55,490 nt of DNA from Oligoflexia bacterium (GTDB lineage Bacteria; Bdellovibrionota; Bdellovibrionia; JABDDW01): NCBI GenBank assembly GCA_020847095.1, contig JADLCR010000076.1, forward strand, positions 1 through 55,490. The letters are read 5' to 3'. The position numbers and the translations under genes are program-made. Shown in pieces: positions 33,776 through 45,230 of this stretch. Position 1 is the stretch's first letter. Each line of letters starts with the position of its first letter. The notes beneath the pieces were generated by a model. The model was not told the origin of the DNA. It searched no databases and saw nothing but the letters and a program-made list of their open reading frames with translations.

Positions 33776-35242
33776 TTACTCTTTGAGTCTAAATTTCTTC
33801 TTAATATCTTCGCTGCCTTCGCTCGCCGAGTACATAATGACCGGAGTGACGAAAACCACAAACTGACTCTGGTTGCGTTGAAATTGTCGGCTTGCGTACA
33901 AAGAAATCAATGGATTCTCAGAAGCCCCTTGCGGCAATCGATTGTAGGCCATACTTGAATCGTTTGAAACAAGACCGCCGATGGCAGCACTTTGGGTGCT
34001 TCTCACTGCAACTCGCGTTTGAATAGACTTATTACTCACCAATGGGCCTTTTTCGGTTTGGCCAATTAAACTCTTCAAAGCAAAGTTAATCGTCATGTTG
34101 ATCGAGTCAGATTTGCTGCTCACAATTTGAGGCGTGATATTCATTTCGATACCCGCTTCTTCAAAATTTGTCGTGAGTTGGCCATATTGGTTTTGAACCG
34201 TATAAGGAATGCGGGTCAACGATTTGATTGATCCGGGATTTCCGTCTTGAACAATAATGCTTGAACTTTGAAGCACTCGCGCATGTCCATGAGCCTTAGC
34301 AAAGTTAAGTTTTGGCAACAAGTCGTTGATGGTACCCGTAATGGTGGTCAACACCCCGCCCGCCACATCACGACTACCACTGGAAAACTGAATGCCGGAA
34401 TTTTCTTTTAGCGTAGGCGTCCATTGAAAACGAAAACCCTTGGTGTAATCTTTTTGCAATTCCACAAAGTGAACGATGACCTTAATGATTTTTCCGGGTT
34501 GTGGCTCGGGCCCCGGCTTAATCGTCAGCAAATTGATAACTGAATCTACTTTTCGCTTCTTTAATAACCCCGCACTCTCGGCCGCCTCTACCACCACATC
34601 GGGTACGTATGTTTTGGCGATAATCTCTGCTTTTTGTTTTTCGCCATCACTGGAGGCAACTCCCTCGAGAATAAATTTTTCATTAACGGCACGAACATGA
34701 ATTTCCGGGTTACCGATATCTCGCTCGATGAGTTCAGCAATTTTCTTTTGAGCAAGAGGGCTCATGGTGACAATACTTGTGGCCACATCGCTAAATTGCG
34801 CGACTACCGAATAGATACGGTTCATGTCACGGGGGAGGAGAATTTCGCCGTCCACCACGACTTTGCCGTTGACGATTTTTATACTAATGCCATCAATATC
34901 ACCCAAAAGGCTCTTAATTTCATTGGCAACGCGATTAAGGTCATTTTTCTGAACAACAATGTCGTACTGGGCAACGAGATTGCCCTTAGAGTCTCTCAGG
35001 CTAAAGTTCGTACGTCCCGCCTTCTTGGGCTCAAACCGAATGAGCTTAAGCTGAGGCGCTACCGAGATGCGTACGATTTCTTTATTGTATGGCGACTCAT
35101 CACCAATGGTCGCCGGCATATTTTCGACTTTTCGCTCTTCCGTAAGTCCCAATGTGAGATTGATGCGGCTTTTCGCCCACGCCGGCGTGGCGATTAGGCT
35201 TAGCGCCATCATCATTTGAAATATAAAACTCACCTTCTTCAT
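33776..35242 (-). CDS. cpaC: Tad pilus outer-membrane secretin CpaC/RcpA
   Basis: A 488-residue protein with a signal peptide (cut after PAWA at about residue 23). Residues 30-100 are the pilus-specific N-terminal domain (EIVRISVAPQLKLIRFEPKK), followed by a BON-like segment (VNGKVVVDGEILLPRDMNRI). The secretin domain spans about 250-475, with LQSSSIIVQDGNPGSIKSL, AGIEMNITPQI and FVVFVTPVIM. It forms the outer-membrane pore through which the Flp pilus passes. GGAGGGG precedes the ATG. It is the last gene of the minus-strand pilus operon, 13 bases after cpaB. Confidence 0.9.
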   Translation of the reverse strand: MKKVSFIFQMMMALSLIATPAWAKSRINLTLGLTEERKVENMPATIGDESPYNKEIVRISVAPQLKLIRFEPKKAGRTNFSLRDSKGNLVAQYDIVVQKNDLNRVANEIKSLLGDIDGISIKIVNGKVVVDGEILLPRDMNRIYSVVAQFSDVATSIVTMSPLAQKKIAELIERDIGNPEIHVRAVNEKFILEGVASSDGEKQKAEIIAKTYVPDVVVEAAESAGLLKKRKVDSVINLLTIKPGPEPQPGKIIKVIVHFVELQKDYTKGFRFQWTPTLKENSGIQFSSGSRDVAGGVLTTITGTINDLLPKLNFAKAHGHARVLQSSSIIVQDGNPGSIKSLTRIPYTVQNQYGQLTTNFEEAGIEMNITPQIVSSKSDSINMTINFALKSLIGQTEKGPLVSNKSIQTRVAVRSTQSAAIGGLVSNDSSMAYNRLPQGASENPLISLYASRQFQRNQSQFVVFVTPVIMYSASEGSEDIKKKFRLKE

Positions 35243-35255
35243 GACCCCTCCAGGG

Positions 35256-36161
35256 TTAATACTTCACGTCACTACCCCGAATCTCCGAAAACGGAGATGC
35301 GGGTTGTCGCGGCTGCTGTTGTTGTTGCTGCTGTTGAGCCGCCGCAGCGGCCTGGGCTTTTTGCAATTGCAGTTGAAGACTGCGGTCACTATCCATTCCT
35401 AAAACACGATCTACGGTACTTGTCGCAATTCTCTGCAGCACCTTATCGTTGCCATTTCTTAGAGTTAGAAAAATACTGCCAGGTGCAACGCTCAATATAT
35501 AAACTAGGTTTTGAGCTTCATCGGGGTTTACTTCTACCGTTACGGTTGAATAGCCCGTATCGCCGTTAAGATTTTTATAAACCGGCTTTCCGTTAAAATT
35601 ATCGAGCTCTAAAATTCTTGGAATATTATTGGTGACATTTAGTCCAGTCGCCAAAACCAAGATGTCTTGAAGCAGCGTTTTAACTTCACGTCGCTCATTC
35701 TTTCCATCACCGTAAGAAATACTCGTGAGCACATCGATACGATCACCGGGGCGAATGAGTTTTCCAACGCCGCGCACCTCATCAACAGGAATGGTAATAG
35801 CTCTTTTATTTAGCGCCACTTGATGAGCAAGGCCTGTGCTAGGCCCGGGAGCTAGAAGTTTGGTTAAAATAATTTGCTCGCCCTTTTTAATGGGCGTTGC
35901 CGCAACTAACCCCACGACATCTTCAGGACTTTCAACAGCCCCCGGCTGCAAAAAGTCTGTAGGGCGCTCTTCTTGAGTGACCATTGTTTCATCAATGGAA
36001 CTCATTTCTAAAATATCTTTTGCTGCGATTAGTACCGTTTTCGTGGATCCGAATTTTTTGTCATAAACAGCCTTTTGCTCTTGAGTGTACGAGTAAATCA
36101 AGAACATGGCAAAGAGCGCGGCTCCAATTGAAATCCAAAATGTTCGACTATTTTGATTCAT
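35256..36161 (-). CDS. cpaB: Tad pilus assembly protein CpaB/RcpC
   Basis: A 301-residue protein with an N-terminal membrane helix (about residues 8-24). A SAF-like domain follows (STKTVLIAAKDILEMSSIDE, then VGLVAATPIKKGEQIILTKL). The RcpC/CpaB core contains TIPVDEVRGVGKLIRPGDRI and VTVEVNPDEAQNLVYILSVA. A C-terminal run of nine Gln after poly-Ala is unusual. The ATG at 36161 has GGGAG eight bases ahead; an in-frame GTG at 36176 would overlap the previous gene. CpaB works with the secretin in the periplasm during Flp pilus assembly. Confidence 0.88.
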   Translation of the reverse strand: MNQNSRTFWISIGAALFAMFLIYSYTQEQKAVYDKKFGSTKTVLIAAKDILEMSSIDETMVTQEERPTDFLQPGAVESPEDVVGLVAATPIKKGEQIILTKLLAPGPSTGLAHQVALNKRAITIPVDEVRGVGKLIRPGDRIDVLTSISYGDGKNERREVKTLLQDILVLATGLNVTNNIPRILELDNFNGKPVYKNLNGDTGYSTVTVEVNPDEAQNLVYILSVAPGSIFLTLRNGNDKVLQRIATSTVDRVLGMDSDRSLQLQLQKAQAAAAAQQQQQQQQPRQPASPFSEIRGSDVKY

Positions 36162-36163
36162 AG

Positions 36164-36586
36164 CTATCTCCCGCACCGAGCGTTAACGCAAATTCCATAA
36201 GCAGATCGTATTGAAATGATAGACACTCTATCTCCATCGAATCTGGAGGGAACTTGATCATCTTCCCTAACGGCTGTTAGCACTCGGCCCACAGCCGGGA
36301 TTCGATCATCGCCCGCTTGATCTTCATCGTTGATCATATGAAGCCTTGCATTGTTCACCACTACTTCATCACGGGTGTTGTCTTGCCTGAAAGCCTCTAT
36401 GTCAGATCGATGTCGTAATGTTTCGAACAGATATGTACGCGCATGGATGTTTCCCAGTATTGCAGAGTGAACGGCTGCAAAAAAATCAATGGTGTACGCC
36501 GTTAGCGTAACGAATGCGATCATAAACGCCAGGCACTCCACAAGTGCAAAGCCCTTTTGATTTTTGGTTTTGCGCAAACTTCTCAT
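36164..36586 (-). CDS. Tad minor pseudopilin (TadE/F-like)
   Basis: A 140-residue protein with a prepilin-type N-terminus: KNQKG then FALVECLAFMIAFVTLTAYT, with Glu at +5 after the expected cleavage. About 100 residues of soluble domain follow, with two cysteines near the C-terminus (GICVNARCGR). It fits a minor pseudopilin of the TadE/TadF/TadG type. The ATG at 36586 is used; an in-frame GTG nine bases earlier overlaps the previous gene's stop and is also possible. The next gene starts two bases after its stop. Confidence 0.72.
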   Translation of the reverse strand: MRSLRKTKNQKGFALVECLAFMIAFVTLTAYTIDFFAAVHSAILGNIHARTYLFETLRHRSDIEAFRQDNTRDEVVVNNARLHMINDEDQAGDDRIPAVGRVLTAVREDDQVPSRFDGDRVSIISIRSAYGICVNARCGR

Positions 36587-36588
36587 CG

Positions 36589-37191
36589 TTAACACCCGTT
36601 ATCCAAAATCAAAACTGGGGTTCCGGCACCGCGTCCGTAAATCGAAGGATCTTTTTGAATCAAGGCCGAGTAGGCCCCTCTCATCACGGCTTGGCATTCT
36701 TGAAATGTTGGCTCGCGAAGCAAAAAGCTAGAAACCCTGGTTTGAAAGCCAGGAGAGCCTTGGGGCGGCTGAAGGGCCGCACCGAAAAATGGAAGCTCAA
36801 GTCCCATGATGGGAAGATTGAATACAATTTGATAACCAATGAAACTATCACGATCGGAGCTTGCTCCAATCTGATCGCGGTAGTTTGAAAGCTTTCCGGC
36901 TCCGTGGCCATTTGATGCAATTTCGATCCAACCAGCCCGTCGAGCTCGTGAAATAAATGGCGTTGATTCGAGCAGCTGATCGACCTTAGCCTTCGCCGCT
37001 TGAGTTTGTTCGTTGGGGGTAAGTTCGGCGGCGAAATAGACGCGAGCGCCACTGAAGCTGATGTATTGAACGATTTCGACTAAGGTTAAACCGTAGGCGA
37101 GCGCACTCAGTAAGACGGAAACCGTCATGACCAAAATAAATGAAAACAAGAAGTCGATTGTTAACTGCCCATTTTCGTTAAGCCGCCTCAT
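36589..37191 (-). CDS. Tad minor pseudopilin with Asp at +5
   Basis: A 200-residue protein with N-terminus RRLNENGQLTIDFLFSFILV. A prepilin site after Gly would leave Gln at +1 and Asp, not Glu, at +5, followed by a membrane helix to about residue 35. The C-terminal domain of about 160 residues is soluble, with one Cys in FQECQAV and one at the extreme C-terminus. It resembles TadE/TadG-class minor pilins in position and layout. The Asp substitution at +5 might alter how it packs in the filament. The ATG at 37191 follows the previous gene by three bases. Confidence 0.68.
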   Translation of the reverse strand: MRRLNENGQLTIDFLFSFILVMTVSVLLSALAYGLTLVEIVQYISFSGARVYFAAELTPNEQTQAAKAKVDQLLESTPFISRARRAGWIEIASNGHGAGKLSNYRDQIGASSDRDSFIGYQIVFNLPIMGLELPFFGAALQPPQGSPGFQTRVSSFLLREPTFQECQAVMRGAYSALIQKDPSIYGRGAGTPVLILDNGC

Positions 37192-37194
37192 GGC

Positions 37195-37431
37195 CTAATC
37201 CCTCTTTCTCGTTGAGTGCCGAGTCAGTGTTGCCGGATGTTTTGCGCCTGAAACTCTTCGATCTCCAGGCACTCCAAATTCAATTGTCGAAGAGAGCCTC
37301 GCCCACGGCTCTCCAAATACCTTTTGAAAAAACTCATCGCGGCGAAGAACCTGAATGGCTCCTGTCCAAACAAGAATGACCACTCCCATGAGCAAAACGT
37401 TTTCGATCAGGGCTTGACCGCGCTCACTCAT
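37195..37431 (-). CDS. Small Tad pseudopilin
   Basis: A 78-residue protein beginning MSERGQALIENVLLMGVVIL, with Gly at the cleavage site and Glu at +5. A single hydrophobic helix and a short basic C-terminus follow. The ATG at 37431 is chosen because GAAGGATCA lies just before it and it forms an ATGA overlap with the previous gene. It lacks the Tyr at +6 of the major Flp pilin and carries Asn instead, which suggests a minor component. Confidence 0.7.
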   Translation of the reverse strand: MSERGQALIENVLLMGVVILVWTGAIQVLRRDEFFQKVFGEPWARLSSTIEFGVPGDRRVSGAKHPATLTRHSTRKRD

Positions 37432-37667
37432 TGATCCTTCACTCCGCCCTTGGGGCGCACGGGCCGTTGCCAATCGCCGCCACGGGTAAATCCGGCGCCT
37501 GTTTGTAGTCTTCCCTGGAGCTTGGCTCCAAGGTAAGGAGTGGCGCCACTAAATGTAAGCGGTAAGTCTCTGGCCACTTTGCCAACAAAAATGAGGAAGA
37601 GCGCTGTTAGCAAAACAAATTCTACTAACGTTTGGCCTGCCGCATTTTTTAAAGGACTCCGCCGCAT
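37428..37667 (-). CDS. Small Tad pseudopilin
   Basis: A 79-residue protein beginning MRRSPLKNAAGQTLVEFVLL, with the prepilin site after Gly-11, Glu at +5 and Phe at +6, then a helix to about residue 32 and a Gly/Arg-rich tail. AGGAG stands five bases before its ATG. It follows the Flp pilin gene by 22 bases and overlaps the next pseudopilin by four. A run of several different small pseudopilins is more than the usual TadE/F/G set. Confidence 0.7.
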   Translation of the reverse strand: MRRSPLKNAAGQTLVEFVLLTALFLIFVGKVARDLPLTFSGATPYLGAKLQGRLQTGAGFTRGGDWQRPVRPKGGVKDQ

Positions 37668-37689
37668 AAACTCCTAAAATCGCTAGCCC

Positions 37690-37860
37690 TTACTGGATGA
37701 CGGCTGAACCTTTTGAGGTCACCTGTCCAGTCCACTGGGTAATAGCGGATTGAATCTGATTTCTAAAAATCGAGATGAGAATCACGATGACTCCGGCCAA
37801 CAAGACGTATTCCAACATCCCTTGACCCTTTTCGTTTCTTAATAGACGTCGCACTTTCAT
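37690..37860 (-). CDS. flp: Flp-type major pilin
   Basis: A 56-residue Flp pilin beginning MKVRRLLRNEKGQGMLEYVL. The class-III prepilin site after Gly gives Glu +5 and Tyr +6, the Flp hallmark, followed by a hydrophobic helix (AGVIVILISIFRNQI) and a short hydrophilic end. The ATG at 37860 has an ideal GGAGGAAAA ahead; upstream in-frame starts add a polar leader unlike Flp. It is the first gene of the minus-strand operon, with a sigma-28-like promoter about 60 bases upstream. In B. bacteriovorus a comparable flp gene lies beside the hit locus. Confidence 0.88.
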   Translation of the reverse strand: MKVRRLLRNEKGQGMLEYVLLAGVIVILISIFRNQIQSAITQWTGQVTSKGSAVIQ

Positions 37861-37920
37861 TTTTCCTCCGAACATTGTGGTCGTTCTTGGGCCCACACTT
37901 GCGGACCCCCTCAGAGACAC

Positions 37921-37947
37921 CTATCGGCATGTGTTTGAAAAAACTCA
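37921..37947 (-). promoter_or_regulatory. Sigma-28 (FliA)-like promoter of the Flp operon
   Basis: On the minus strand TGAGTTTT, an 11-base spacer, then GCCGATAG. The FliA consensus is TAAAGTTT-N11-GCCGATAA, so the -10 matches 7 of 8 and the -35 matches 5 of 8 with exact spacing. Transcription would start near 37912, giving a leader of about 50 bases before the flp ATG. In Bdellovibrio FliA-type promoters are linked to attack-phase genes (established knowledge). Prediction only. Confidence 0.5.
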
Positions 37948-38061: not shown

Positions 38062-38185
38062 GACTCAAATCAGGCGGGCCTGCAGACTTTGGCTCCGGGG
38101 AAAGCTCATCCGTGAGGCGGCAGCTGGCCGTCCCTGGCCAGAGCCTCCCCTTCGCCAAAGTCTGCAGGCCCGCCCGACTTGAGTC
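38062..38185. repeat. Long hairpin 1 between the divergent pilus operons
   Basis: Left arm 38062-38093 and right arm 38154-38185 are 32-base inverted copies with two mismatches. The inner 21 bases (GGCGGGCCTGCAGACTTTGGC and complement) are perfect. Within the 60-base loop, GAGGC/GCCTC and CTGGCC/GGCCAG extend the stem. The right arm also overlaps a separate perfect hairpin, GCCCGAC-TTGA-GTCGGGC at 38172-38189, so two structures compete. It could be a structured RNA, an insulating terminator or a remnant of a small mobile repeat. Confidence 0.8.
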
Positions 38186-38234
38186 GGGCTTATTCAAAAG
38201 CTTCGTTTTTTGATCGTGCTCTGGATCCTTTCCC

Positions 38235-38347
38235 AAGAGCCGGCCCCTGCGATTCTCGAAGAGCAAGCTCCGATGCCAGGATGGCCTTCGAATCGGTCGA
38301 GCCATGGAGGGCGTCTTGCTAGGAGAGAATCGTGGGGGCCGGCTTTT
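38235..38347. repeat. Long hairpin 2 between the divergent pilus operons
   Basis: Arms 38235-38257 and 38325-38347 are 23-base inverted copies with three mismatches (core AGCCGGCCCC and GGGGCCGGCT, then CGATTCTC and GAGAATCG). Inside, AGCAAG/CTTGCT, CTCC/GGAG and ATGGC/GCCAT pair in nested order, so almost all 113 bases fold as one irregular stem. It is unrelated in sequence to hairpin 1 and begins 50 bases after it. No coding capacity is supported in this stretch. Confidence 0.75.
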
Positions 38348-38473: not shown

Positions 38474-40690
38474 GTGGCCATCAATCCACAATGTCATGTG
38501 ATTGCCATTTCTGGCGGCAAAGGCGGCGTTGGAAAAAGTGTTTTCGCCGCCAACTTTGCTCAAGCCCTTATGCTTGAACTGCGAGCGCGAGTGTTGTTGA
38601 TTGATTTGGACGCTCAAAGTTGCGGTGATCAGAACGTTCTCTTAGGTCTCCGTCCAAATAAAACAATTTCTGAGGTTGCGACGTTTGGAGGCCACATCAC
38701 CGCACAAACTATCAGCACCCTCATTGCGCCACACAATTCGGGACTTCATTTTATCGGTGCCGTGCGTGCACCAGGCGACATTTACGATGTCAATGTCGAG
38801 GGTCTAAAAAAGTCGATAGAGTCATTAAGTCATTTATATAATTTTATTGTCGTCGATATCGGGACACATTTTCAAAATCCTCAGCTCGCGATGATTGAAA
38901 TGTCGAGCGTGGTTTTGCTTCTCACTCTTCCGGAAATCTTATCCACGAACCAGACGATGAAAACAATCAGCCAACTCATGACTCAAATGTTTCCTGCCGA
39001 CATGCTTCAAGTTGTCTTAAATAAAGTTTCTCAATCCAATCCGCTGACTCCCCAAATGGCAGCTCAAAGCCTCAAGAAAAATCCGGTCGGCGTCATTCCT
39101 CAAGATGACGTTATCGTAAGCCAAGCACTTTCACGCTCAACGCCCTTTGTGGCGTCTCAACCCCGGGCTCCCATTTCAATTGCCTTTCATGAAACGGTTA
39201 GAAGACTTACATCTGGCGGAACTCTTGATAAGCTAAGAAGTCTCAATAAACCAAAAGGCGTTCAATCAGACGTTAAAAACGAAACACAGATCAAACCACT
39301 TGGAGCTGCAAGCACCTCTCAAACAAGGCCTAACGATACAAAAAAAGCTGAAGTCTTTGATTCTCGAACCGTGCTTAAGCGAAGACTTCATCGGGGCTTG
39401 ATCGAAACCATGGATCTCAAAAAGGGCATTACAGAAACCAACGGAGATCCCGCAAAAGAAACTGAATTGCGAGTTAAAACTCAGCAATCAATTGCAGCAT
39501 TACTTGATAAAGAAGGCTCTACGCTTTCTAGAGAAGAACGGGCCCTCATTGTAAAAGAAGTTCTCGACGAAGCTCTCGGACTTGGCCCCCTTGAAGATCT
39601 GTTATCAGACCAGGCTGTTTCTGAAATCATGGTTAATCGCCGTGATCTTATTTACGTTGAGCGAAGCGGAAAACTCACCCGTACGGATTTTAGTTTCACC
39701 AGCAATCAGCAATTACTTACTGTGATCGAGCGGATTGTGACTCCCCTTGGTCGTCGCATCGATGAGAAAACGCCATATGTCGATGCGCGACTCAAAGACG
39801 GAAGTCGCGTGAATGCCGTGATTCCACCGCTGGCGATTGATGGGCCATGTATTACCATTCGAAAATTTGCTAAAACACCGATCACCTATAAAGACTACGC
39901 AAATTTTGGAACGATGACCGAACCCATGATCGATTTCTTAAGGATCTGCGTTGAAAACGGTTTAAATATTATCATTAGCGGTGGCACTGGATCTGGTAAA
40001 ACAACTCTTCTTAATGTGCTTTCGGGTTTTATTCCCGCAACCGAAAGAATTATTACCGTTGAAGACGCCGCCGAACTTCAACTTAAACAAGACCATGTGA
40101 TTCGCCTAGAAACGCGGCCTCCAAACATGGAAGGTGAAGGTGCGGTCACGATTCGCGACCTCATCCGAAACACCCTTCGCATGCGCCCCGATCGCATTGT
40201 TGTTGGAGAGTGCCGAGGCGCTGAAGCTCTTGATATGCTCGCGGCCATGAGCACAGGACACGACGGATCGCTTTCCACGGTTCATGCTAACAGCCCTCGA
40301 GAGGCCATCAAACGCCTTGTTAACCTCTGCAGCATGGCTAAAGAAGCCCCTTCAGAAAAGGCCATCATGGAGCAGATCACCAGTGCCGTGGATCTAATTA
40401 TTCAGATCTCAAGGCTCTCAGATGGTTCTAGAAAAATTTTAAGCATCACCGAAGTTGTGGGCATGCAAGGTGACATTGCAACGACCCAAGAAGTTTATCG
40501 CTTTAAAGAAGAGGGCTTTGATAAAAACAGAAAAATCATAGGCCAGTTTCAAGCAACCGGCTTTATCCCCACCTTTATCGAAGAATTTGAACGTAAAGGC
40601 GTGAAAGTTCCACGCACCCTGTTTGCACCCCCTGCAGCTTCAGGTCCCGCCAAAGAAACTGCCGCAACTGGCACGGGAGGTAAGAAATGA
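38474..40690 (+). CDS. cpaF: CpaE/TadZ-CpaF/TadA fusion ATPase of the Tad pilus
   Basis: A 738-residue fusion. Residues 1-260 are a MinD/ParA-type ATPase with deviant Walker [10 protein letters not shown] (about 14-22) and LLIDLDAQ, matching CpaE/TadZ, which places the pilus machine. No CheY-like receiver, often present in CpaE, precedes it. A polar linker of about 60 residues leads to CpaF/TadA (about 310-715), with GGTGSGKT (503-510), [20 protein letters not shown] and [12 protein letters not shown]. This secretion ATPase powers pilus assembly. The start is GTG, ten bases after AAGGAG. The stop overlaps tadB by four bases. Confidence 0.92.
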
Positions 40691-41562
40691 GTTTTCTTGC
40701 TAGTCCCTGGATCGTTGTACCTGGAGTTGGCGTTTCAGTTTTTGCCATCGTTTATGTAAACGCTGATCGCATTGTGGAGTGGCTCAAGCGTCAAAGTCTT
40801 GGGCAACGTGAATACATCATTCAACGACTCGATATTATGTTTGTCGAAGTCGATCCCAAGCGACTGACTATGGCCATGCTCCTCATGAGCTTTGGATTAG
40901 GGTTTTTGGCGCTACTCTTATTTTGGCCAAACGTGACTTCAGGACTTCTCTTTGGAAGTCTTCTCACTTTTGTCGGCTGGAAGATCCCCAAATTGATGGT
41001 TGATCTCTATTATGCTCAACGGGCCAGTCGATTTGTTGACCAACTCGTAGATGGATTAACCCTCATGTCAAACGGTTTGCGCTCGGGATTAAGCCTGACT
41101 CAGGCCATGAAAATAGTTGTGGATAATATGCCCAACCCAATGGCTCAAGAGTTTGAACTGATGCTTTCCCAAAACGCCTTGGGTGTCAGCATTGAAGAAG
41201 TGATGAACGAACTCGCAAAGAGAATTCCGTATCCGGATGTTCAAATGTTTGTAACAGCTGTAAATATTCTTAAAGATACGGGCGGAAATATTTCAGAGAC
41301 GTTTGACACCATCGCGAAGACAGTCAGAGAGCGCATCAAAATAGAAAAGAAAATTGCAGCGGTCACCGCCCAAGGCGTCATGCAGGGAATCATCATTACG
41401 GCCACGCCCTTTGTCTTGCTCATCATCATGGCCCTCATGGATCCAGCGTATATAAAGCCTTTGTTCAGCCAGACCTTAGGAAGGATTATTCTCATTGCTA
41501 TGGTGGCGTTACAAATAATCGGTGGCCTCATGATTCGCAAAATCGTTAAAATAAGGGTATAG
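40687..41562 (+). CDS. tadB: Tad pilus inner-membrane platform protein TadB
   Basis: A 291-residue protein with an N-terminal helix, two helices at about 60-100, a T2SSF domain and two C-terminal helices. The domain contains FVDQLVDGLTLMSNGLRSGL, VGNISE-like GGNISETFDTIAKTVRER and KIAAVTAQGVMQGIIITATP. It is the platform subunit with which CpaF works. Tad systems normally encode a second platform protein, TadC, directly after TadB; here a YD-repeat protein occupies that position. The start is coupled to the fusion ATPase by an ATGA overlap. Confidence 0.9.
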   Translation: MSFLASPWIVVPGVGVSVFAIVYVNADRIVEWLKRQSLGQREYIIQRLDIMFVEVDPKRLTMAMLLMSFGLGFLALLLFWPNVTSGLLFGSLLTFVGWKIPKLMVDLYYAQRASRFVDQLVDGLTLMSNGLRSGLSLTQAMKIVVDNMPNPMAQEFELMLSQNALGVSIEEVMNELAKRIPYPDVQMFVTAVNILKDTGGNISETFDTIAKTVRERIKIEKKIAAVTAQGVMQGIIITATPFVLLIIMALMDPAYIKPLFSQTLGRIILIAMVALQIIGGLMIRKIVKIRV

Positions 41563-41564
41563 CC

Positions 41565-43193
41565 ATGTTAAGAACCACTCTCCTACTCATAATGCTTTTC
41601 ACCGGATTTCAAGCTCGAGCCCTTGTCGACTTGAAAAACGCCAACTACTCGGACACCTGGGCCGACATCACGCTGCCAGGCTCTGGCTTTGATCTTAAGA
41701 TAGAAAGAACCTACAATTCTCGGACGCTTTTTAATGGAATGTTCGGCTTTGGATGGTGCGCGGATTTTGAAACCTCAGTTGAAATAACCGCCGAAGGAAA
41801 CCTGCGACTATTAGAGTGTGGCGCTGGCGGTGAAGTGCTCTATCACAGCCGCAATTTCTCAGAAAAGGACATTGATAAAACAGTAAAGACTATTATCGGA
41901 AAAGTAAAAACCGACAACCCGGTAATTAAGCCCGAAGCACTTAAGGCCCTTGAAGTACGCCTAAAAAATGAGACCGTACTAAGAGGCGAGTATGCCCTCA
42001 AGTTTGGAATCGTTCGCACTATTGCCGACAAAACGCGCTTCTTCGCAAACGGTCGCGAATCTGAGTTTATTGAAAAGTCTGGTCCTTACTATTCTCGCGT
42101 GCTCACCGACGGGACAACGCAAAAGTTCAATATGCAGGGCAAGCTAGAAAAAGTTTTCGACAAAAACGGCAACAGTCTAACTTTAACCTATGACGGGCGC
42201 CGCCTTCGCGATGTCATGGATAGTTCTGGCCGCAAACTTTCTTTTAAGTATTACGAAAACGGAAAAGTACAAACTATTACGGGGCCGAATAGCATCAAAG
42301 CCGAATATAAATTCAAAAATCTCAATGATTTGATTTTTGTAAAAGCAGCCTCCGGAAATATTTATACATACGAGTACGATGACCTTCACAATATGCTGAA
42401 GGTGACCTATCCGGACAAATCAACCAAGGCCCTCACCTACAACAAGAACTTCGACTGGGTGACAAGCCACAAAGATCGCGACGGGTGCCTAGAGAATTAT
42501 GAGTACGTTCAGTCCGATGAAAACCCAAAGGATCACTTTTGGGCGAACGTTATTCGCACTTGTCAGAACAAGACCGTTTTGAAAGCAAAGTATGAATTTT
42601 GGTACGAATGGAACTCGACGCGAACTGGCAAGTATCTTAAAAAGGGCAAAACTGTAGAAAATAACAATGCCGTAGAAGTTAGCTATAACGAGCTTGGAAA
42701 GCCGCTTAATATTGCCAGACAAGGTAAGAATACGCGCTACGAATATTATGACAATGGGCTGTTGAAAAAGAAAACCATGCCCGACGGCAAAAGCACTATC
42801 TTTTCGTATGACCCAAATTTTAAAAAGGTAAACAAGGTTATCAATGGCAATTTGGTCACAAATTTCAACTATGACAATAAGGGAAATTTAACAAAAGCTA
42901 CTAATAGCCTGGGACAAGCGGTTGTTCTTTCATATGATCCTCGAGGCAGAATCATTGCTCTTGAAGACCAAGCGAAGAGAAAGGTGCTCATACAATACGA
43001 CGAGCGCTTTGGAAAGCCGCAAGTTATTGAAAGAGAAGGGCTCGGAAAAATCACCGTGGCTTATGATAAAAAGGGTGGAATTGAAAAAGTCTCCAGCCCT
43101 GAAGGGGGCCCCACAATAGCCATACAAGTGGCCACGGCGTTTGGCAATTTGCTTGATTTGATTCAACCAGCGGGGGTAACGCTTTCGTTATGA
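41565..43193 (+). CDS. Secreted RHS/YD-repeat protein, Bd0109-like (hit locus)
   Basis: A 542-residue protein with a signal peptide (MLRTTLLLIMLFTGFQARA). Its N-terminal domain, with GFDLKIERTYNSRTLFNGMF and FGWCADFETSVE, is typical of RHS proteins. About ten YD repeats follow, such as GNIYTYEYDDLHNMLKVTYP and GLLKKKTMPDGKSTIFSYDP. There is no C-terminal toxin domain and the protein ends inside the repeat region. In B. bacteriovorus Bd0109, a YD-repeat periplasmic protein beside type IVb pilus genes, binds Bd0108 and influences pilus extrusion. Position after cpaF-tadB and architecture make this a probable counterpart. Confidence 0.82.
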   Translation: MLRTTLLLIMLFTGFQARALVDLKNANYSDTWADITLPGSGFDLKIERTYNSRTLFNGMFGFGWCADFETSVEITAEGNLRLLECGAGGEVLYHSRNFSEKDIDKTVKTIIGKVKTDNPVIKPEALKALEVRLKNETVLRGEYALKFGIVRTIADKTRFFANGRESEFIEKSGPYYSRVLTDGTTQKFNMQGKLEKVFDKNGNSLTLTYDGRRLRDVMDSSGRKLSFKYYENGKVQTITGPNSIKAEYKFKNLNDLIFVKAASGNIYTYEYDDLHNMLKVTYPDKSTKALTYNKNFDWVTSHKDRDGCLENYEYVQSDENPKDHFWANVIRTCQNKTVLKAKYEFWYEWNSTRTGKYLKKGKTVENNNAVEVSYNELGKPLNIARQGKNTRYEYYDNGLLKKKTMPDGKSTIFSYDPNFKKVNKVINGNLVTNFNYDNKGNLTKATNSLGQAVVLSYDPRGRIIALEDQAKRKVLIQYDERFGKPQVIEREGLGKITVAYDKKGGIEKVSSPEGGPTIAIQVATAFGNLLDLIQPAGVTLSL

Positions 43194-43438
43194 AATATTT
43201 AATTCTGACTTCTATATTCTTGTTTTCCAGCATTTCCTTCGGCCAAGACCAGGCAGAACTGGGAGCGCGGTATTTCGGAGTGGTGGGACTTGAGCCTAAA
43301 TCCGATGATGAATCTTGCAACTCTTTTAAGAACTTGGCCTCTCAGCACGGGTATCAGCTCGATGAAGCACGCCGCGGTAGAGACGGTTCGACCGAAAACT
43401 CCGACTCTGATGCCAATTCAACCTCTCGCATTCAATAA
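43190..43438 (+). CDS. Small secreted protein in the Bd0108 (hit) position
   Basis: An 82-residue protein with a signal peptide (MKYLILTSIFLFSSISFG). The short mature part is highly polar with a single Cys and an Asp/Ser/Asn-rich, probably unstructured C-terminus. Its ATG overlaps the stop of the YD-repeat gene by four bases, so the two are made together. Bd0108 of B. bacteriovorus is a small secreted protein encoded beside the YD-repeat gene, and mutations in it permit prey-independent growth. Position, size and export match; I cannot confirm sequence homology. The 81-residue gene at 43549 is a second candidate. Confidence 0.65.
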   Translation: MKYLILTSIFLFSSISFGQDQAELGARYFGVVGLEPKSDDESCNSFKNLASQHGYQLDEARRGRDGSTENSDSDANSTSRIQ

Positions 43439-43443
43439 CCACC

Positions 43444-43460
43444 TGTCTAAGGTTTAGACA
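43444..43460. repeat. Palindrome after the Bd0108-like gene
   Basis: TGTCTAA and TTAGACA form a perfect 7-base inverted repeat with a 3-base spacer, six bases after the stop. The CT-rich tract CCCCTCTCTCTTTT begins four bases later, a poor terminator tail. As it lies 49 bases upstream of a sigma-54-like promoter, it might instead be an operator. Confidence 0.45.
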
Positions 43461-43508
43461 ACGCCCCTCTCTCTTTTAAATCAGATTTCACTCTCAGCCC
43501 GTTTTTGG

Positions 43509-43524
43509 TGGCACGTGAGTCGCA
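43509..43524 (+). promoter_or_regulatory. Sigma-54-like promoter
   Basis: TGGCACGTGAGTCGCA matches the RpoN consensus TGGCAC-N5-TTGCW at every fixed base but one (C for the second T). The diagnostic GG and GC are at the right distance. Transcription would start about 12 bases after the GC, just before GAGGAGAGAG and the ATG at 43549. Confidence 0.6.
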
Positions 43525-43548
43525 TCTCTTCAAGACGAGGAGAGAGTT

Positions 43549-43794
43549 ATGAAACTAACAGCAATTATTGCCCTTATATTGGCTTCTAACTATGCGCTAG
43601 CCGGAGAAAGTCGATTAGGTGCCGGATCTACATTTGATGGTGAGGTTTCACAATGTCCCTATAAGGCACGCGCATTGGCAACAGGCGCCAATCTTGAAAA
43701 TGGCGCGCTTACCATTAGCAACTCACAAGAATATGCAATGAAACAAACTCGAGGCTCAGGCCGAGCAAAGCGGGCTAACGAAAATATTCCCTAA
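43549..43794 (+). CDS. Small secreted protein with its own sigma-54-like promoter
   Basis: An 81-residue protein with a signal peptide (MKLTAIIALILASNYALA, cut before GES). The 63-residue mature part has one Cys and ends in a basic stretch (TRGSGRAKRANENIP). No family was recognised. GAGGAGAGAG lies five bases before the ATG. It follows the hit-like operon by 110 bases and ends immediately before a convergent gene. Its small size, export and location make it another candidate partner of the YD-repeat protein (inference). Confidence 0.68.
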   Translation: MKLTAIIALILASNYALAGESRLGAGSTFDGEVSQCPYKARALATGANLENGALTISNSQEYAMKQTRGSGRAKRANENIP

Positions 43795-44163
43795 TTAAGG
43801 AGACGATACGTTCGAATTTGCGGCGGGCAATCTCGCGGGCAGCTCGCCCTCTAACATAGACTCTTCGCTTTCGTTGTAACGCTTAAGATCAACGTTTATG
43901 CCCCGCTCTTTTGGCCCTTCATGTCGCTTGGTCATTCGCGCAAAGAAGTAACGAAGTCCTGAATCCGCTTTTTTGTAACCGGCATTTACCAGTAAAATTC
44001 CGCCATCAATGGCCTCTTGGATCGAGTCGACAATCACGGAAGTTTTCACCCAGCCATCAAAATGATCTTCAATGGTTTGCTGGCCCACTCTTGCTTGGAG
44101 TATTAACGCCACCAATACTGTAAGCCCCAACATTTTGATAAAGAATACGGCGTCTTTAATCAT
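43795..44163 (-). CDS. Small membrane-anchored protein, unknown function
   Basis: A 122-residue protein with one N-terminal hydrophobic helix (about residues 5-24, VFFIKMLGLTVLVALILQAR) and a charged remainder, so it is probably anchored in the inner membrane. No domain was recognised. Its ATG overlaps the stop of the upstream CheY-like gene by four bases; the pair are therefore co-translated and may act together. The gene ends exactly where the convergent small secreted gene ends. Confidence 0.65.
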   Translation of the reverse strand: MIKDAVFFIKMLGLTVLVALILQARVGQQTIEDHFDGWVKTSVIVDSIQEAIDGGILLVNAGYKKADSGLRYFFARMTKRHEGPKERGINVDLKRYNESEESMLEGELPARLPAANSNVSSP

Positions 44164-44546
44164 ATGAGTTCCTCTCTTGATTGATTAGAAAAAACCGAAT
44201 CAATCCGCTCTTGAAGGTCTTTTGCCTTAAATGGTTTGTGCAAAAAATCGTGGGCCCCTGCCTCAACCGCGCGAGTCATCATCAGTTCCTGGTCAATGGT
44301 ACTACAAGCCAAAATGCGCACTCTTCGGTTTTCACTTAAAATTTCTTTTATCGCCTGAATGCCACTTTTCTCTGGCATGACCAGGTCCATGATGATGAGT
44401 TCGGGCTTGAGCTTTTGAGCCATTGCAATAGCTTCAGCGCCGTTGGCAGCTTCACCTACGACTTCATGCCCGAGCCGTTGAAGATGAGTCCTCAACACTT
44501 CTCGAACAAACGCGGCATCATCAACTACTAGAACTTTCCGACCCAT
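44160..44546 (-). CDS. CheY-like response regulator
   Basis: A 128-residue single receiver domain. The acidic pocket is Asp-9/Asp-10 (VLVVDDAAF), the phosphorylation site is Asp-54 (IIMDLVMP), the switch Ser/Thr is in ILACST, and the conserved Lys is in FLHKPFKA. There is no output domain, so it acts by protein contact, as CheY does in motility. A histidine kinase is not encoded nearby. It is divergent from the DedA gene across 57 bases and coupled to the small membrane protein downstream. Confidence 0.92.
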   Translation of the reverse strand: MGRKVLVVDDAAFVREVLRTHLQRLGHEVVGEAANGAEAIAMAQKLKPELIIMDLVMPEKSGIQAIKEILSENRRVRILACSTIDQELMMTRAVEAGAHDFLHKPFKAKDLQERIDSVFSNQSREELI

Positions 44547-44603: not shown

Positions 44604-45230
44604 ATGGACTCCTCAGTACTAGACCAAATTCTGGAAAAGGTCAGCCACTTAGAAGGCACCCAGGCGTATGCCGCCATCTTTGGTGTGCTTTTCGCTTGTG
44701 GGATGGGCGTTCCTATTCCTGAAGACATCACGTTATTTGTTGCGGGCTATCTCACTTATTTAGGAAATATCGAACTCGGCCCGGCCATCATGGTCTGTTT
44801 GGTGGGCGTCTTAATTGGCGATTACTTCTTGTTTTTCCTTGGTCGCATTTATGGAAAAAAAGTATTGCAGTGGAAACTTTTGTCTTTCGTTTTAACCCCT
44901 GAACGAGTCGCCCTCGCACAACAACGCCTTAAGAAAAATGCAAAAAAAGTTTGTTTTGTCGCTCGTTTTTTGGCGGGACTGCGAGCCCCGATATTTTTCA
45001 CAGCCGGCATGCTCGGAGTGCGTCCCGTGGTGTTTATGACTCTCGATGGACTGGCAGCTCTCATTAGCGTTCCATTCTTAACTTACATTGGTTTTTATTT
45101 TGGAAACGAAATCGAGATTGGCTTGAACTATATGCGAAAGGCCGAAAGGTATATTCTCATCGGGCTTGCGCTGATCGGGCTTGTCGTTATCTTGAAAAAT
45201 CTCTTCAAGAAAATCAACGCCCCCACTTAA
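44604..45230 (+). CDS. DedA-family membrane protein
   Basis: A 208-residue inner-membrane protein. FACGMGVPIPEDITLFVAGY and the GDYFLFFLGRIYGKK region with the FVARFLAGLRAPIFFTAGML motif are the DedA (SNARE-associated) signature, including the conserved Glu, Asp and Arg residues. DedA proteins flip lipid carriers such as undecaprenyl phosphate or phospholipids and support envelope integrity. The 3' end overlaps the convergent outer-membrane gene by 17 bases. Confidence 0.9.
   Translation: MDSSVLDQILEKVSHLEGTQAYAAIFGVLFACGMGVPIPEDITLFVAGYLTYLGNIELGPAIMVCLVGVLIGDYFLFFLGRIYGKKVLQWKLLSFVLTPERVALAQQRLKKNAKKVCFVARFLAGLRAPIFFTAGMLGVRPVVFMTLDGLAALISVPFLTYIGFYFGNEIEIGLNYMRKAERYILIGLALIGLVVILKNLFKKINAPT

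Follow-up and report, generated by a model that had tools for sequence, protein, structure and literature searches.

The sequence analysed here, which we refer to as the window, is the 55,490-nucleotide contig JADLCR010000076.1 (positions 1 to 55,490, forward strand) of the Oligoflexia bacterium assembly GCA_020847095.1 (Bdellovibrionota; Bdellovibrionia). The region of interest is almost certainly the hit (host-interaction)/Tad locus, encoding a type IVb pilus, of a Bdellovibrionia species; in predatory Bdellovibrio this locus governs dependence on prey. Comparison across the phylum shows two small secreted proteins here, not one, which we call SP1 and SP2; the second corresponds to the open reading frame (ORF) previously reported as a non-coding RNA in Bdellovibrio. 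The genes that carry the argument are as follows.

38474..40690, plus strand: cpaE-cpaF (tadZ-tadA) fusion, 738 residues (Pfam CbiA and T2SSE).
40687..41562, plus strand: tadB, inner-membrane platform protein, 291 residues (Pfam T2SSF; 53% identity to the homologue at the same position in Bdellovibrio bacteriovorus HD100).
41565..43193, plus strand: Bd0109 orthologue, secreted YD/RHS-repeat protein, 542 residues (DUF6531 and RHS repeats).
43190..43438, plus strand: SP1, secreted protein of 82 residues with one cysteine, in the Bd0108 position (assigned by position, size and signal peptide).
43549..43794, plus strand: SP2, secreted protein of 81 residues (assigned by position; counterpart of the ORF in the HD100 hit-locus small RNA (sRNA) gene, at the position of BD_RS00505).

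The original prediction, made from the letters of the window, had proposed a hit-type locus, and this was borne out: the YD protein is orthologous to Bd0109, N-terminus included, and close as well as distant relatives share the order cpaEF-tadB-YD. Whole-genome searches found YD relatives in 60/60 close relatives and, at E below 1e-40, in 321 of 369 Bdellovibrionota genomes, with one clear best copy per genome. The window protein is 59–65% identical to its orthologues within the family and, over the full or nearly the full length, 48–50% identical to those of Bdellovibrio genus g10, which includes HD100 (our genome G015, recognised by the published bd0108 and sRNA primers present in it). The N-terminal block NGMFGFGWC is invariant among 30 aligned orthologues.

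The order small pilin genes, CpaB, CpaC, CpaEF, TadB, YD does not vary between Bdellovibrio, further families of its class and remote families of the phylum, and in the window cpaEF (tadA) and tadB precede the YD gene on the same strand. From cpaEF to SP2 the genes and their order are those of the HD100 hit locus, bd0108–bd0119 (PMC3818213, PMC4267844), with 47–50% identity of the YD protein. The window differs in that its flp–cpaC half lies in inverted orientation and diverges from cpaEF, and there is no single co-directional run from flp to the bd0108 position. Because the YD protein is orthologous to Bd0109 and its gene closes a conserved Tad/Flp locus, we identify the region as the hit locus, and the inversion is a rearrangement of the hit/Tad locus, not another locus. 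CpaE (TadZ) and CpaF (TadA) form one protein, in which a MinD/ParA-type CpaE domain (CbiA, residues 10–216) is joined to a CpaF/TadA pilus ATPase (T2SSE, residues 368–654), and the two are fused in 91/91 loci of the phylum where both domains were found. The gene list first drawn up for the region stands as regards its ORFs and their coordinates, but the cpaE and cpaF that it gave as two genes are a single ORF.

We note that the Tad synteny of Bdellovibrio-like predators, which the window shares, and the presence of bd0109–bd0113 in their core gene set were known before, according to the accessible part of Avidan (2017, PMC5430801); that part of the paper makes no mention of paired SP1/SP2, of the shared tail described below or of the CpaE–CpaF fusion. 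Because Bd0109-type Tad loci occur phylum-wide, the locus by itself is no diagnostic of the predation switch. It might work in the window organism as it does in Bdellovibrio, which we consider doubtful. A Bd0109-like protein (29% identity) was also seen on a contig labelled as a gammaproteobacterial metagenome-assembled genome (L060), with no Tad genes detected nearby; this may be a case of mis-binning.

The AlphaFold model of the window YD protein (mean pLDDT 85) has an Rhs-shell fold, and its best structural matches are the Rhs cores of type VI secretion systems (T6SS; TMq up to 0.58), in agreement with sequence profiles. The repeat region resembles in sequence and fold the Rhs/YD-repeat shells of T6SS RhsA (7q97), Advenella VgrG-Rhs (8qja) and the teneurins, whereas the window protein is half their size, has its own signal peptide, shows no toxin module and is linked to Tad genes. 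The fold, the match to T6SS Rhs effectors and the small gene directly downstream could be taken to indicate an Rhs polymorphic toxin, with SP1 (or SP2) as its immunity protein. We regard this as extremely improbable. The protein, at 542 residues, carries a Sec-type signal peptide, as do both small partners; it is present in one copy and keeps its synteny with Tad genes throughout the phylum; and its C-terminal end (QVASTFNNLLDIIAPAT...) is strongly conserved in the 30 aligned orthologues, with no variable toxin region after the Rhs core. Because of this conservation we agree with the original prediction that the YD protein has no toxin tail. In the AlphaFold model its C-terminus ends in a conserved helix at 515–537.

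The two small genes follow directly. The ATG of SP1 overlaps the YD stop codon by 4 bases (ATGA), the coupling that had been noticed at the outset, and SP2 is preceded by a strong Shine–Dalgarno sequence (gaggagagag). In 104 non-redundant loci, the 820 bases that follow the YD stop codon were surveyed for ORFs of 45–150 residues, using a simple hydrophobicity rule for signal peptides, not SignalP, and simple start choices; a few assignments may be wrong. The same strand carried 169 signal-peptide-like ORFs and the opposite strand 20, where Markov-resampled sequence would lead one to expect 9.7, and 70/104 loci had two of them. In most of the class the start of SP1 falls in a range from 4 bases before the YD stop to about 20 bases beyond it, and SP2 starts 350–700 bases after that stop. 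The two-gene module after Bd0109 is a phylum-level feature. The two small signal-peptide neighbours BMS_0183/0184 of Halobacteriovorax marinus SJ, noted in PMC4267844, represent the same module and correspond to our locus L086; the authors of that paper recognised no homology of the pair with Bd0108 and, in the part available, drew no tie to the second HD100 gene. Within the window, SP1 and SP2 are identified by position, with signal peptide, size, one cysteine and weakly similar tails (SRIQ / ENIP) in support, and SP2 is homologous to that of the same-family locus L064 (z = 4.9).

Two side observations concern the module. Some Bdellovibrio loci (L005, L008, L010, L014 and L016) have a third tandem copy about 900 bases past the YD stop. 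The Tad locus of putative B. exovorus JSS (L123) contains both SP1 and SP2; the 2014 study, in its accessible part, took another YD gene, far from this locus, as the B. exovorus hit equivalent (PMC4267844).

In HD100, a 2013 study described a 261-bp non-coding RNA gene at 96455–96716 that is up-regulated in bd0108 mutants (PMC3818213). The SP2 ORF of HD100 (96483–96683, minus strand, 66 codons) shares its strand with bd0108 and is entirely contained in this reported sRNA gene; our Bdellovibrio SP2 profile (A3) recovers it at 96486–96680, and both published reverse transcription PCR (RT-PCR) primers (PMC3818213) fall inside its codons. Comparison with a putative Tiberius genome gave 15 synonymous and 3 non-synonymous differences (ratio of non-synonymous to synonymous rates, dN/dS, 0.04), and 15 of these 18 differences are at third codon positions, a constraint like that on Bd0108. 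Over the closest pairs with enough differences, SP2 has a dN/dS of 0.04–0.10, and the ORF is conserved class-wide. A regulatory sRNA should have no conserved coding potential, whereas the HD100 SP2 ORF is under purifying selection. Judging from these codon patterns, HD100 SP2 is very probably a protein-coding gene inside the published ‘sRNA’, and on positional grounds the 81-residue window protein would be the counterpart of the gene called a non-coding RNA in the Bdellovibrio literature. The available part of PMC5941755 lists a RefSeq hypothetical gene, BD_RS00505, between bd0103 and bd0108; this is the one paper in the literature searched that names it, and in the portions accessible it draws no link between BD_RS00505 and the sRNA.

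In keeping with the published view, the second HD100 transcript could still be an RNA that is mainly regulatory or has a dual function, with the small ORF incidental or secondary; RNA-seq indeed gave a discrete RNA at 96436–96822, up-regulated in bd0108 mutants (PMC3818213). We consider this improbable, in that the position of the ORF, its signal peptide and its cysteine are conserved across the class, changes in it are mainly at third codon positions, its tail is kept matched to that of SP1 at the protein level (see below), and no credible Rfam RNA family was found at the window equivalent.

Profile comparison indicates that SP1 and SP2 are paralogues in Bdellovibrionaceae, with HHalign E values of 3.5e-7 for the full alignments and 3.4e-4 for the mature parts. 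In this family a cysteine, an [RLM]x[DNKS]xT block and the C-terminal tail are common to both, whereas an additional N-terminal segment of SP1 (NPGEDPNEA ... CxxC) has no counterpart in SP2. The block shared by SP1 and SP2 is, in HD100 Bd0108, residues 73–86 (RRHDDTVSREIKGS), which are the residues taken out by the recurrent 42-bp host-independence deletion, as given in the accessible part of PMC4267844. Published nuclear magnetic resonance data show that Bd0108 residues 24–66 bind Bd0109, 74–85 moderately or weakly and 89–101 not at all. This could account for why the 42-bp deletion, the commonest host-independence mutation, differs from a null: the shared block is lost, with the Bd0109-binding part and the tail spared.

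The paralogy, and the rise of SP2 RNA in bd0108 mutants, would also fit SP2 as a redundant or backup Bd0108 that has the same role and is induced upon loss of Bd0108. However, SP2 is without the N-terminal segment that binds Bd0109, and its induction fails to restore normal predation in bd0108 mutants, which makes this explanation distinctly unlikely. As a separate observation, bd0108 at locus L011 is frameshifted after NPGEDPNEARTGS, with the remaining codons (CPEC...RLGDDT...TKTGTR) intact in another frame; this is a natural or sequencing-derived mutation of the host-independence type. L011 may be strain W, whose Bd0108 reportedly lacks the C-terminus.

The C-terminal tails of SP1 and SP2 are matched within genomes. 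For the last five residues of the two proteins from the same genome the mean BLOSUM score is 5.9, compared with −0.3 ± 0.6 after permutation, and the match remains when permutation is stratified by clade (5.9 against 1.26 ± 0.61, 0/5000). It is also higher for the partner in the own genome (5.0) than for that in the nearest relative (1.6, p = 0.007). Internal stretches are mostly without such a match (p = 0.04–0.44), and the C-terminal tails of other Tad-locus proteins gave no comparable match to the SP tails, RR128 being marginal (p = 0.03–0.05). Identical tail residues use the same codon in 37/85 cases, against 33.6 predicted from codon usage; because codon agreement is no higher than codon usage predicts, the match is kept at the protein level and not by DNA copying. 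Wrong SP assignments would weaken the match, not create it. The matched tails suggest a common third partner of SP1 and SP2.

These results also bear on whether SP1 and SP2 outside Bdellovibrionaceae are simply unrelated secreted proteins that are present here by chance, their tail similarity arising from composition or relatedness only. The mature sequences have diverged past recognition between families, and window SP1 aligns with nothing, as such an explanation would have it. We nevertheless consider it unlikely: two SP ORFs occur at similar spacing in most loci, the tail match is significant in the f12 stratum alone (p = 0.0002) and exceeds that to nearest relatives, and internal stretches mostly show no match, with offset 20 marginal (p = 0.04).

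The overall reading that we favour, and consider reasonably probable, is a hit/Tad locus with a YD scaffold, paired SP1/SP2 and an adaptor mechanism. The secreted YD protein would form a scaffold at the base of the pilus, built as an Rhs half-shell without a toxin. SP1 would act as a disordered bipartite adaptor, with its N-terminal part docking on the YD scaffold and its shared block and tail binding a second, hypothetical partner. SP2, as a short form with block and tail and without the docking part, would either share this partner with SP1 or compete with SP1 for it, and would thus set to what extent the SP1–YD complex engages the partner and, through this, the extrusion of pili. The simplest reading of the matched tails would be that the two proteins share one partner or compete for it, and we propose the common-partner adaptor model tentatively. 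A further generalisation, which we find questionable, is that the prey-dependence switch is not a protein pair plus an sRNA but a three-part periplasmic system, ancestral to the phylum, in which a YD-shell scaffold and two antagonistic disordered peptides (Bd0108 and SP2) with a co-evolving C-terminal address would act on one receptor.

Several points weigh against this reading. No similarity in sequence between window SP1 and Bd0108 could be detected (z = −1.5), and, in a further difference from the HD100 locus, window SP1 has one cysteine, no CxxC and no alignable Bd0108 sequence. It is therefore a positional counterpart of Bd0108 only, and the resemblance to the Bd0108 region suggested earlier extends to the position of the 82-residue protein but not to its sequence. 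In line with this, the NCBIfam model NF053838 hit_Bd0108 (cut-off 40 bits), with which HD100 Bd0108 scores 102 bits and which 8/26 SP1 proteins match at E ≤ 0.1, gave no match to window SP1. Window SP2 is alignable solely to the SP2 of L064, and profile A3 gave no match at its position. About one-third of the 104 loci have one or no SP ORF under the rule used, and the shared block was found mainly in Bdellovibrionaceae. The strand of the HD100 RNA is unproven, because the published RT-PCR was apparently, as its text goes, not strand-specific. In an AlphaFold model of the YD–SP1 read-through chain of B. bacteriovorus kdesi (L059), SP1 was disordered (pLDDT below about 30) and formed no interface, and the tail-binding partner is hypothetical, with no known candidate.

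Ever since the discovery of the hit locus, how Bdellovibrio chooses between growth inside prey and independent growth has been an unsolved question. Should the reported sRNA be the messenger for a conserved, secreted Bd0108 paralogue, the sRNA pathway proposed for the locus would need re-examination and the mutant phenotypes a new interpretation. The co-evolving tail predicts a common partner, which is directly searchable.

The inverted half of the locus comprises the following features.

33776..35242, minus strand: cpaC/rcpA secretin (Pfam Secretin and BON).
35256..36176, minus strand: cpaB/rcpC (Pfam RcpC and SAF).
36164..37191, minus strand: two TadE/pseudopilin-like genes (143 and 200 residues), syntenic in relatives.
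37195..37920, minus strand: three small pilin-like genes including flp (ORFs; synteny in relatives).
37921..37947, minus strand: possible FliA-type promoter of flp, TGAGTTTT-N11-GCCGATAG (4 mismatches to consensus, tentative).
38062..38331, no strand assigned: palindromic dispersed repeat between flp and cpaEF, at the inversion junction (repeat searches).

The whole flp-to-cpaC half (33776–37920) is inverted relative to cpaEF (38474), whereas CpaC is co-directional in 88/88 relatives with a detectable CpaC. In the window the inverted half stands between a KUP transporter gene and cpaEF; in L064 and L065, from the same family, KUP, flp to cpaC and cpaEF all run in one direction. The apparent inversion may stem from mis-assembly. 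We also considered a phase-variable switch and rejected it: no long inverted repeats flank the flipped flp–cpaC segment, and there are only local palindromes at one junction. Roughly a dozen sequences related to the junction palindrome are found at other places in this genome, most of them grouped on contigs C14, C15, C25 and C27, and Rfam gave only chance microRNA-like matches, on this palindrome.

A strict search for FliA promoters (≤3 mismatches) gave no match in the window, and the window site alone is not significant. Comparable FliA-type sites occupy this position in L064, with 1 mismatch, and in L065, with 5 mismatches. The candidate promoter moved with the flp half, and cpaEF-tadB-YD-SP1 of the window must therefore have its own promoter. 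Beyond SP2, the genes at 43795–44546 (minus strand) and 44604–45230 (plus strand) encode a 122-residue membrane-like protein, a CheY-type response regulator and a DedA protein, which adjoin the SP genes in many relatives.

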